A DNA stretch of 11,587 nt from positions 1-11,587 of the forward strand of contig JALUVB010000077.1 of the NCBI GenBank assembly GCA_027021085.1, written 5' to 3'. This document shows, piece by piece, positions 20 to 11,587 of this stretch. The translations under genes and the position numbers were made by a program. The notes under the pieces were generated by a model, which saw only the letters and a list, made by a program, of their open reading frames with translations, had not been told where the DNA came from and made no database searches. Each line of letters begins with the position of its first letter. The first letter of the stretch is position 1. Source of the DNA: a bacterium. GTDB taxonomy: Bacteria > CAIJMQ01 > JAADFP01.

Positions 20-67
20 TTCCCGATATTACATCGGCAACCGCTCCCTCCCTCACTACTTTACTGG

Positions 68-98
68 ATACCTGCTTTCGCAGGTATGACAGGTGGGC
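68..98 (-). repeat. Mosaic repeat, left copy: GAAA-tetraloop hairpin plus CACCTGTCAT box
   Basis: Read on the minus strand, in the direction of ligA transcription, this is GCCCACCTGTCAT (98-86) running into an 8-bp perfect stem, ATACCTGC / GCAGGTAT, closed by a GAAA loop (87-68). The same box and core hairpin recur at 11495-11550 on the plus strand. GAAA is a GNRA-type tetraloop and appears only on the strand that continues the upstream operon. No T-run follows, so it is not a classical intrinsic terminator. It could act as an RNA 3' end structure or be a REP-like dispersed element. Confidence 0.75.
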
Positions 99-146
99 TG
101 GTTGCTTGTCATTCTTGCAAATCCTAACATCCCTTAGAACCTCTCC

Positions 147-180
147 CAGGATACCAGGATTACCAAGATACCAGGGTACC
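147..180 (-). repeat. Mosaic repeat, left copy: 8-bp GTATC tandem units
   Basis: GATAC-type cores (minus-strand GTATC) start at 150, 158 (as GATTAC, one base longer), 167 and about 175, separated by CAG/CAA spacers. This gives four degenerate units of about 8 bp. The counterpart array is at 11464-11493 on the plus strand. It lies between the AGTGAA-type array and the hairpin box, the same order as in the right copy. Confidence 0.75.
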
Positions 181-187
181 AAACCCC

Positions 188-211
188 TATTCACTGTTCA
201 CTATTCACTGC
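188..211 (-). repeat. Mosaic repeat, left copy: 7-bp AGTGAA units
   Basis: On the minus strand the stretch reads as AGTGAAT, AGTGAAC, AGTGAAT and a partial unit: three near-identical 7-bp repeats. The matching array at 11417-11453 on the plus strand is more degenerate (AGTGAGC, AGTAAAT, AGTAAAC, AGTAAGC, AGTGAAT). Confidence 0.8.
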
Positions 212-218
212 TTCCCCG

Positions 219-253
219 GTCTACAGTCTAAAGTCTATGGTCTAAAGTCTAAA
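219..253 (-). repeat. Mosaic repeat, left copy: five 7-bp TAGAC units
   Basis: Read on the minus strand, five contiguous 7-bp units (TTTAGAC, TTTAGAC, CATAGAC, TTTAGAC, TGTAGAC) share a constant TAGAC and vary in the first two bases. The same unit family appears at 11391-11411 and again at 11559-11587 on the plus strand. There is no coding potential. Confidence 0.85.
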
Positions 254-261
254 ATCCCCCT

Positions 262-289
262 TCACTACTAACTACTCACTACCCGCTAC
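262..289 (-). repeat. 7-bp GTAGTGA units overlapping the ligA stop codon
   Basis: On the minus strand, four 7-bp units run GTAGCGG (289-283), GTAGTGA, GTAGTTA, GTAGTGA (268-262). The TAG inside the first unit is the ligA stop codon at 286-288, so the repeat begins exactly where the gene ends. These units resemble the AGTGAA-type units at 188-211 but are phased and spelled differently. Confidence 0.75.
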
Positions 290-2304
290 TGCTTCACCTT
301 CTCCACCAGCTCTACAAACTCTTCTTCTGAGAGCACGGGTATTCCCAGGGCTTTGGCTTTTTCGTATTTGGAACCTGGATTCTCTCCCACTACCACGTAG
401 CTTGTGCGGCGGGAAACAGAGGAAGAGGCTTCACCCCCCAGTTCCTTTATTAGGGCTTCCGCCCGGGAACGAGTAAAGTTGGCAAGCGCCCCGGTGAATA
501 CAAACACCAACCCTCTCAGGGGAAGAGCTCCTTTTTCTTCCTCTCTTTTTAAGCGCACGCCGGCTCTTTTCAGTTTTTCTATCACCTGCCAGGTTTCAGG
601 CTGTTGAAAGAATCTTACTATACTTTCTGCCATTATGGGGCCTATTTCCTGGATGCTTTCCAGCTCTTCCCGGGATACCCTGGACAACTCCTCCAGGGAG
701 GAATAGTGGCGGGACAGAATTTCCGCCGCATGAATTCCCACGTGCCTTATCCCCAGGGCAAATAATACCGCAGAGAAAGGCCGCGATTTGCTTTTCTCCA
801 GGGAGGCAAAAAGATTTTTAGCACTTTTCTCCGCCATCCTTTCCAGTGCTACTACCTCCTCATATCTCAAGGAGTAAAGGTCCCCGTAATCTTTTATCAA
901 TTTTTTATCTACCAGCTGCTCAATAAGAGCAGGGCCCAGATGTTCAATATTCATAGCATTCTTGGAAGCAAAATGCTGGATTCTTCTTTTCACCTGGGCC
1001 GGACAGGCAGGATTTTCGCAGCGATAGGCTACCTCTCCTTCCAGCTTAATTACTTCTGCTCCACACACAGGACAATTTTTAGGCATCTCAAATACGATTT
1101 CGTTGCCTGTTCTTACCTCCGGGATAGGTTTCACTACCTGCGGTATCACGTCCCCGCCTTTTTCTATTATTACCCGGTCCCCGATTCTTATGTCTTTTCT
1201 CCTTATTTCATCCAGGTTGTGCAGCGTAGCCCGGGAAATAACACTGCCTGCGAGGGGAACAGGGTCAAACAGTGCCACGGGAGTAAGTGTCCCGGTTCTT
1301 CCTACTTGAATCTTTATCTCGCGTAAAATAGTAGTGGCCTGGCGCGCCGGGAATTTAAAGGCAATAGCCCAGCGGGGGGACTTGCTGGTGGAGCCCAGCC
1401 GTATCTGCCGGGAGATTTTATTTACTTTTATCACTGTGCCGTCAATCTCGTAAGGAAGGCTGTCCCTTTTCTCATGCCACTCCTGCCAGAAAGTTAATAC
1501 TTCATCCAGGCTGTCGCATAGTTTCCTGTGTTCATTTACCCTGAATCCCACTTCTTGCAGGAAATCCAGTGCTTCCCAGAGTGATTCCCATTCAATTCCC
1601 TGCACGAATCCCAGGGAATGAATGAATATTTTAAGCGGTCTCTTCGCCACTTCCCGCGGGTCCAGGAGCTTGAGGGAGCCGGCCGTGGCATTGCGGGGAT
1701 TGGCAAAGAGCGACTCTCCCTTTTCCTCCCTCTCCCGGTTAATTCTGGCAAAGTCTGCTTTCTCCATGTATACCTCTCCCCTTACTTCCAGAACAGGAAT
1801 AGCCCGGGAAATACGAAGAGGTATAGAGCGGATAGTCTTAAGGTTCTGGGTTATATCATCCCCCTGTACCCCGTTTCCCCGTGTAGCACCCAGGGTAAAG
1901 ATGCCTTCCCGGTAGGTAAGCGAGACAGCCACGCCGTCGATTTTCAGGTCTGCCACGTAGTCTACCTTGTCTTCATCCAGCCACCTCTTTACTCTCTGGT
2001 CAAATTCTTTAACCTCCCCTTCGCTGTAAGTATTATCCAGGGAAAGCATTGGTATTTTATGGGTAATGGTAGTGAATTCTTTTAAGGGTTCACCCCCCAC
2101 TCTCTGGGTGGGAGAGTCCGGGGTTATGAACCGGGGGAATTTTTCTTCCAGCTTTTGCAAACGGGAAAGCAGTTTGTCGTACTCTTCATCCGAGATAACC
2201 GGATTATTTTCTACGTAGTATTTGTGGTTGTGATAGCGTATCTCCTCTCTTAACCTCTCTATTTCTTTCCTGGCTTTCTCCGGGTCAATAGATTCATCCA
2301 TCAT
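286..2304 (-). CDS. ligA: NAD-dependent DNA ligase LigA
   Basis: Seals 3'-OH/5'-phosphate nicks in duplex DNA using NAD+ (releasing NMN) during Okazaki-fragment joining and repair; cytoplasmic. At 672 residues it has the full family length and domain order. An Ia domain covers about 5-75, with Tyr and His in the RYHNHKYY stretch. The adenylation domain has nucleophile Lys121 in KIDG (121-124), and an OB fold follows from about 325. Four zinc-finger cysteines are at 411, 414, 429 and 434, helix-hairpin-helix repeats lie at about 450-580, and a C-terminal BRCT domain at about 596-672. The residue two before the catalytic lysine is Asp119, where many LigA proteins have Glu. The start is one of two adjacent ATGs (2304 or 2301), with AGAGGT upstream inside the end of the TPR gene and only 6 bp between the two genes. 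It is the last gene of the leftward operon, and its stop codon lies inside a 7-bp repeat array. Confidence 0.98.
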
Positions 2305-2310
2305 TATGGT

Positions 2311-11303: not shown

Positions 11304-11310
11304 TTGCAGT

Positions 11311-11346
11311 AAGCTGGGGAATACCGGAATTAGCTGCCGGCTTTTA
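11311..11346 (+). terminator. Weak possible terminator after the redoxin gene
   Basis: AAGCTGG (11311-11317) can pair with CCGGCTT (11337-11343), allowing one G-T pair, across a 19-nt loop. It runs into TTTTA. It starts 8 nt past the stop codon. The loop is long and the T-run short, so this is tentative. Confidence 0.3.
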
Positions 11347-11390
11347 TCTCGGCGCGTCTCCGGGACGGGATGGAACCGGGAAGCTGTATT

Positions 11391-11411
11391 TTAGACTTTA
11401 GACTATAGACT
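11391..11411 (+). repeat. Mosaic repeat, right copy: 7-bp TAGAC units
   Basis: Three contiguous 7-bp units TTAGACT, TTAGACT, ATAGACT. They are the same family as the minus-strand array at 219-253 and again sit on the strand that continues the upstream operon, here the redoxin transcript. Confidence 0.85.
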
Positions 11412-11416
11412 GGGAG

Positions 11417-11453
11417 ATAGTGAGCAGTAAATAGTAAACAGTAAGCAGTGAAT
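11417..11453 (+). repeat. Mosaic repeat, right copy: 7-bp AGTGAA/AGTAAA units
   Basis: Five 7-bp units in a row: AGTGAGC, AGTAAAT, AGTAAAC, AGTAAGC, AGTGAAT. They correspond to the left array at 188-211 and occupy the same place in the module order. Confidence 0.85.
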
Positions 11454-11458
11454 CGGTT

Positions 11459-11493
11459 TCCTGGTATCCCGGTATCTTAGTATCCTGGTATCC
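11459..11493 (+). repeat. Mosaic repeat, right copy: 8-bp GTATC units
   Basis: GTATC cores start at 11464, 11472, 11480 and 11488, a strict 8-bp period, with units GTATCCCG, GTATCTTA, GTATCCTG and a last partial unit. The counterpart is at 147-180 on the minus strand. Confidence 0.85.
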
Positions 11494-11494
11494 T

Positions 11495-11550
11495 GCCCAC
11501 CTGTCATGCCCGCCTGCTCCCGGAGGGCGGGCAGGCCTGCGAAAGCAGGC
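11495..11550 (+). repeat. Mosaic repeat, right copy: CACCTGTCAT box with two hairpins
   Basis: GCCCACCTGTCAT (11495-11507) is followed by a 7-bp G+C stem, GCCCGCC (11508-11514) with GGCGGGC (11526-11532). The GAAA-loop hairpin comes next, stem GCCTGC / GCAGGC (11535-11550). The left copy has the same box and GAAA hairpin but lacks the first stem, so the right copy looks like the left plus an extra hairpin of about 28 bp. No T-run follows. Confidence 0.75.
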
Positions 11551-11558
11551 ATCCAGGT

Positions 11559-11587
11559 TTTCAGACCATAGACTTCAGACTATAGAC
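11559..11587 (+). repeat. Second TAGAC-type array, running off the window
   Basis: Units CAGACCA, TAGACTT, CAGACTA, TAGAC continue to the last base, so the array is cut by the window edge. It has mixed CAGAC/TAGAC spelling and is more degenerate than 11391-11411. Confidence 0.7.

Follow-up and report, generated by a model that had tools for sequence, protein, structure and literature searches.

The stretch analysed here, contig JALUVB010000077.1 of the bacterial assembly GCA_027021085.1 (11,587 nucleotides, hereafter the window), is a whole contig (C77) from a draft genome of 1.93 Mb that comprises 307 contigs, and carries a composite of short tandem repeats at each end, one read away from ligA on the minus strand and the other lying 3' of the redoxin gene on the plus strand. 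A first-pass annotation of the window had described the same four modules, in the same order and in the same sense orientation to the adjacent gene, at both ends, with five versus three TAGAC units, and the coordinates bear out both statements. The left composite begins with degenerate 7-bp AGTAGCG / GTAGTGA units that adjoin ligA (word R, 258..290), which the annotation had missed; the ligA stop codon is inside this array, at 286-290 (GTGAAGCAGTAGCGGGTAGTGAGTAG), so that the array extends to, or itself sets, the end of the ligA reading frame. Further along the minus strand follow five 7-bp TAGACNN units (word T, 219..255, with units at 251 down to 219), three 7-bp AGTGAAY units (word A, 189..211, units at 209-189), GTATC-type 8-bp units of the form GGTATCCT (word V, 146..181), the linker TTGCAAGAATGACAAG (N, 106..120), which recurs across the genome between words A or V and the hairpin, and finally GCCCACCTGTCAT with the GAAA-loop hairpin CCTGCGAAAGCAGG (module P, 67..98). 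The right composite, on the plus strand, consists of three 7-bp TAGAC units (11392..11410), 7-bp AGTRARY units (11417..11453, with AGTGAA/AGTAAA units at 11419-11451), 8-bp GGTATCCT units (11456..11493) and a module P in which GCCCACCTGTCAT is followed by a GC-rich hairpin and then by a GCCTGCGAAAGCAGGC hairpin (11495..11551); it has no TTGCAAGAATGACAAG linker. A second T array (11569..11587, plus strand) lies 3' of this last hairpin and is cut by the contig end, and the module series is therefore cyclic. With up to 2 mismatches, TAGACTTTAGAC had 9 matches in the window, compared with 1.06 ± 1.07 in shuffled sequences. No Rfam family matched the window above its gathering score, and a known RNA family was rejected on this ground as the identity of the repeats.

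Part of the symmetry between the two ends has a technical source. Window bases 1-127 match the end of another contig (C52) exactly, which places an unresolved assembly junction inside the mosaic, and 20 of 64 sampled contig ends (31%) lay no more than 300 bp from a module, compared with 5% of random interior stretches. Given these module-rich contig ends and the 127-base overlap, the presence of the mosaic at both window ends is partly an assembly effect: the assembler broke the contig in repeats.

We next considered the repeats across the genome and in a sister species of the same genus, using 550 kb and 533 kb of stretches, respectively, some of which were picked for having matches. The motif TAGACTNTAGACTNTAGAC (up to 2 mismatches) had 526 matches in the genome, and its backwards control had none. 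The order of the modules is strongly non-random (T followed by A, 51:1; A by V, 12:0; V by P, 6:0; P by T, 18:1), as is that of the linker (A to N, 7:0; N to P, 8:0), and neighbouring modules lie on the same strand in 254 cases vs. 29 strand switches. These counts of order and polarity support, genome-wide, the earlier claim of a dispersed composite beyond chance. Composite copies at unrelated loci reach 94-96% identity across 157-185 bp, with one case of 94% over 168 bp and another of 96% over 185 bp, and a conserved block of about 130 bp that contains CATGTTAGACTATAGACATCAGACTTTAGACATTAGACGGGAAAGACACATGATACGGGG occurs 12 times in the sample in similar module context (L211, L216, L061, L063 and L073 among others). 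Such repeats cover about one third of the intergenic sequence sampled. The 119 T arrays in the 550 kb, none of them inside a predicted coding sequence, are degenerate, tandem, intergenic and multi-copy heptanucleotides like the cyanobacterial short tandemly repeated repetitive (STRR) sequences, a named class of intergenic heptamer repeats, and we class the window copies as a new variety of dispersed heptamer repeats. The near-identical copies at unrelated loci, together with units that are absent from relatives (see below), also support the suggestion that the composite is a non-autonomous mobile repeat.

Mobility of this kind might be due to the hairpin, if module P were a repetitive extragenic palindrome (REP) mobilised by a REP-associated Y1 tyrosine transposase (RAYT), with the word arrays carried along as in bacterial interspersed mosaic elements (BIMEs). 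Module P is indeed a short GC-rich palindrome with polar neighbours, and the genome has two Y1_Tnp matches, with A and P modules at a distance of about 600 bp from one of them (C45). These modules, however, lie on one side of the gene only, the other Y1_Tnp gene (C298) has no module nearby, and many arrays have no hairpin (119 T arrays vs. 34 P modules). The sister species has no Y1_Tnp match and yet 163 TAGAC matches. We found no RAYT gene flanked by the same palindromes, either at C298 and C45 or in the sister species, and rejected RAYT/REP as the driver given that the Y1_Tnp genes are not associated with the modules; we regard a REP/BIME origin as unlikely.

The first-pass annotation had further proposed a terminator or boundary element tied to operon 3' ends. 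Both window copies are preceded by a stop codon, and the expected orientation bias to flanking genes is present, with array clusters in tandem gaps on the sense strand in 22:7 cases in the window's genome (p = 0.008) and 37:9 in the sister species (p = 4 × 10−5). However, when gaps of 100 bp or more were counted, T/A arrays occupied 28 of 99 tandem, 10 of 17 convergent and 13 of 25 divergent gaps in the window's genome, and 35 of 108, 10 of 19 and 10 of 24, respectively, in the sister species. Divergent gaps contain no 3' end and are filled as often as convergent ones; hence, a tie to operon 3' ends is not supported. Neither window composite contains a site resembling an intrinsic terminator (a GC-rich stem followed by a U tract), and the right composite folds no better than shuffled sequences (z = −0.96). 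Of 78 orthologous gaps compared between the two species, 11 had arrays in both, 4 in one and 63 in neither, and where both species have arrays, the contents differ greatly; in the sister species, sequence resembling V and the hairpin lies 3' of the redoxin gene, with no T or A array. Most array sites are thus old hot spots with changing contents. The dispersed, ordered and polar composite of the annotation therefore stands, whereas a terminator was rejected on the lack of a U tract and the occupancy of divergent gaps, and a terminator or boundary role appears highly improbable. A regulatory repeat acting post-transcriptionally or by binding a protein, as proposed for the TAACTGA heptamers of Beggiatoaceae (PMC4679880), would agree with the frequent location of arrays near start or stop codons, but the words, their copy number and their presence change between species with a median protein identity of 91%, and no conserved gene set was seen beside the arrays; we consider this explanation very unlikely.

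Arrays of the same type flank genes for four-helix-bundle (4HB) proteins of the family TIGR02436. We identified matches to this family in 44 genomes, and examined the flanks of 80 4HB genes at 78 loci in 39 of these genomes; the elements analysed scored above the family cut-off. Under a periodicity criterion of at least 0.65 at lag 7 within 35 bp, 7-bp periodicity was detected in 41% of upstream and 31% of downstream flanks, compared with 0-1% in shuffles and 9% and 14%, respectively, at control open reading frames (ORFs). An 8-bp periodicity was found in 16% of upstream and 15% of downstream flanks, and all other lags were at background (no more than 4%), the harmonic at 14 excepted. The two flanks of a 4HB gene were inverted relative to each other above the 99th percentile of mismatched pairs in 64% of cases (p = 6 × 10−33), compared with 0 of 19 for control ORFs. 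In tandem gaps, 4HB genes lie in sense (43:5, p = 1 × 10−8) at a median distance of 104 bp 3' of the upstream gene, the arms are rich in G when read in the direction of the gene (48:6 and 33:7), and most elements have a private word in their arrays. The elements examined in detail lie between protein genes and not within a 23S rRNA gene, and in the predicted RNA of the element in the window's genome (C296) the arms are paired (z = −2.73). The element thus consists of a 4HB gene between inverted degenerate 7- or 8-bp tandem arrays, and lies in sense orientation in the gap that separates a stop codon from the following gene. A deep code linking 4HB protein to word was rejected (Mantel r = 0.10, p = 0.08). 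The nearest solved structure to the 4HB protein is XCC0516 (2gsc).

We examined seven 4HB sites of genomes G003 and G004 in relatives. For 6 of the 7, only a short spacer separates the flanking genes in one relative or more (G005 at L157, L158, L159, L160 and L161; G006 at L157 and L154). Because the flanking genes of the relatives are about 70-80% identical in DNA, gain and loss are not distinguishable. Gene-less inverted arrays are found at two of the sites, namely, a 121-bp array between hisF and purF in G003, possibly with a 4HB start (L158), and an array in G006 that is similar to the flanks of the 4HB element at G003:C94 in its word (GTTAACC) and in parts of both arms (L160). Both are short, gene-less and bounded by terminal inverted repeats at sites that are empty in relatives, the features of miniature inverted-repeat transposable elements (MITEs). 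The element is thus present or absent as a unit between relatives, with gene-less inverted arrays at the same sites. Other contents were seen as well: a different heptad array and an apparent other 4HB start at L157 in G003, a GxxExxY gene enclosed by inverted repeats of its own at L159 in G006, a TGTCATTGCGA-type element at L161 in G003 and G006, and another insert of about 1.1 kb at L155 in G004. L157, L159 and L161 hold different small elements (4HB, GxxExxY or TGTCATTGCGA-type) depending on the species and are common insertion hot spots.

These comparisons bear on the alternative that the arrays are neutral intergenic heptads and octads that arise by replication slippage and spread by recombination or gene conversion, with 4HB genes among them by chance. 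Reports that bacteria contain an excess of heptameric repeats go back to 2007, polymerase slippage being the only explanation offered (PMC4692102), and the arrays do vary in unit number and sequence, most have no gene nearby, and similarity between copies ends inside arrays, although the alignment itself breaks there, so that this last feature is of no use as proof. Slippage, however, would not place one word in inverted copies on either side of a single gene family in 39 genomes, does not explain units that are absent from relatives and does not yield 94-96% identical multi-module copies at unrelated loci. We consider a purely neutral origin rather doubtful.

The word T connects the window to the 4HB elements. 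TAGAC arrays flank 4HB genes in the window's own genome (C296), in the sister species (G001:C89) and in a relative of the same class (G004:C11); in the latter genome, 2 of only 5 T-array matches flank one small TIGR02436 gene, in inverted orientation, and the same site is empty in G005 and holds a GxxExxY gene in G006. TAGAC is the only window word common to the 4HB elements of the genus. In unrelated genomes, 4HB genes (L257, L242, L260 and L255) are accompanied by words similar to R, O (AACTCGC, found elsewhere in the window's genome), A and V, a likeness that is only suggestive because many words exist. TAGACTN arrays of at least 10 units were also observed in Bacteroidota, which are unrelated to the window's lineage, at L101 (Muricauda), L086 and L111 (Prevotellaceae).

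On this evidence, we think it reasonably probable that the window mosaic, a dispersed repeat without coding function, was put together by copying and recombination of gene-less arrays from elements resembling the intervening sequences (IVS) of 23S rRNA. Such an element would lack a promoter of its own and be transcribed with the host operon, and its arms would pair in the RNA as in rRNA IVS; loss of the 4HB gene would leave orphan arrays, which in the window's genus may have been amplified to hundreds and joined into composites. Copying and recombination within same-word arrays would leave the order and strand of the modules intact, because when two arrays of one word cross over, only sequence that already followed this word becomes attached. 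The composites would then be selfish or neutral rather than terminators, and the direct, multi-word composites of the window would descend from 4HB-flanking arrays. The sense bias is common to 4HB genes (43:5) and orphan arrays (22:7 and 37:9).

Several observations weigh against this reading. The window copies have no 4HB gene, their arrays are direct, and they lack inverted termini such as those of MITEs; a simple element that lost its gene would give inverted pairs, whereas the orphan TAGAC arrays of the window's genome are mostly direct (82 same-strand vs. 14 inverted neighbours within 400 bp). The step from inverted ends to polar direct composites is therefore the weak point of the account. 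Only one 4HB gene with TAGAC is present in this genome, and for module P no connection with 4HB elements is established. In other phyla, none of 40 TAGAC loci lies within 600 bp of a 4HB gene, and 5 of the 40 (Prevotella) have a GxxExxY gene no more than 100 bp away; the words are therefore not restricted to a single gene family. Words and 4HB proteins agree in their relatedness only at protein identities above about 50%, the control ORFs are few (22 upstream, 42 downstream and 19 with both flanks), an empty site alone fits gain or loss alike, and no target-site duplication was seen, the flanks being too diverged to show one.

The GxxExxY family (TIGR04256) has flanks of a related kind: at L296-L325, 74% have inverted repeats, compared with 11% of mismatched pairs, with words of 8-9 bp such as AATCTGCGT or CACAGAGG and no heptads. 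The GxxExxY gene of the window's genome (C299) has no heptads either, and adjoins a cas1-like ORF. A broader possibility is that much bacterial intergenic heptamer and octamer content (STRR, TAACTGA and others) represents the ends, or derivatives without a gene, of a single large and hitherto unrecognised class of IVS-like mobile elements that lack a promoter, which would carry a 4HB gene, or a GxxExxY gene with 8-9-bp words, insert in sense after stop codons and acquire a new end word in each lineage; this generalisation could well be right, although we stop short of calling it probable.

On ten plasmid records (nine cyanobacterial and one from Riemerella), most 4HB genes are flanked by inverted 7-8-bp arrays, including elements with the word GGGAGTA in Nostoc edaphicum (NZ_CP054697.1) and GGAACAG in Nostoc sp. 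C052 (NZ_CP040276.1). Two such genes are located inside CRISPR-Cas operons, one between cas6 and cas4 on a plasmid of Anabaena sp. 90 (NC_019429.1; L376) and one, with an 8-bp word, between cas10 and a cmr3-like gene in Picosynechococcus PCC 7003 (NZ_CP016476.1; L377). In genome G014, the TIGR02436 matches on C2, C3 and C7 form head-to-head pairs with about 100-160 bp between the partners, and the two pairs fetched had no heptad flanks.

A single element for the repeats and the S23 protein would give the repeats a testable origin and the protein a genomic habitat outside rRNA. It would also offer a reason why such genomes fragment in assembly, and caution against taking such arrays for terminators or regulatory sites.

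Among known systems, the IVS of 23S rRNA (Leptospira, Coxiella), which RNase III excises, share with the free 4HB elements the gene family (TIGR02436, S23/4HB protein), terminal inverted repeats around the gene, with a predicted RNA stem for C296, and the sense orientation in the host transcript. The Coxiella IVS also has, like the 4HB elements, heptamers before the gene, namely, tandem GACAGAT units upstream of S23p, and no function is known for S23/IVS proteins (PMC4990558). In a literature search that covered few subscription journals, we found no report linking S23/4HB genes to heptad flanks beyond this Coxiella note. Unlike the rRNA IVS, the free elements lie between protein genes rather than in 23S rRNA helices, and are therefore classed as IVS-like rather than as IVS; each of their two arms is a tandem array of 7-8-bp units whose word is private to the element, and the window copies are gene-less, direct and multi-word. 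MITEs resemble the 121-bp element of G003 and the GTTAACC element of G006 as gene-less inverted repeats at sites empty in relatives, but the termini of the 4HB type are tandem arrays and not unique inverted repeats, and the target duplication of MITEs was not seen in 4HB elements, whose flanks are too diverged to show one. We know of no transposase for 4HB elements. REP/BIME systems with RAYT share with module P a short palindrome in polar mosaics, but the sister species has the repeats and no Y1_Tnp match. The 4HB proteins match the model of Avd, from diversity-generating retroelements, weakly (E about 1 × 10−5), far below its cut-off. Finally, STRR and the other intergenic heptamers (GGGNATC in Nostoc and Xanthomonas, TAACTGA in Beggiatoaceae and the heptads of Geobacter; PMC4692102, PMC4679880, PMC2700814) are, like the window repeats, degenerate tandem units with many copies, patchy distribution and unexplained origin; unlike these, the window words occur in a fixed order, and words of this type are associated with 4HB gene flanks.

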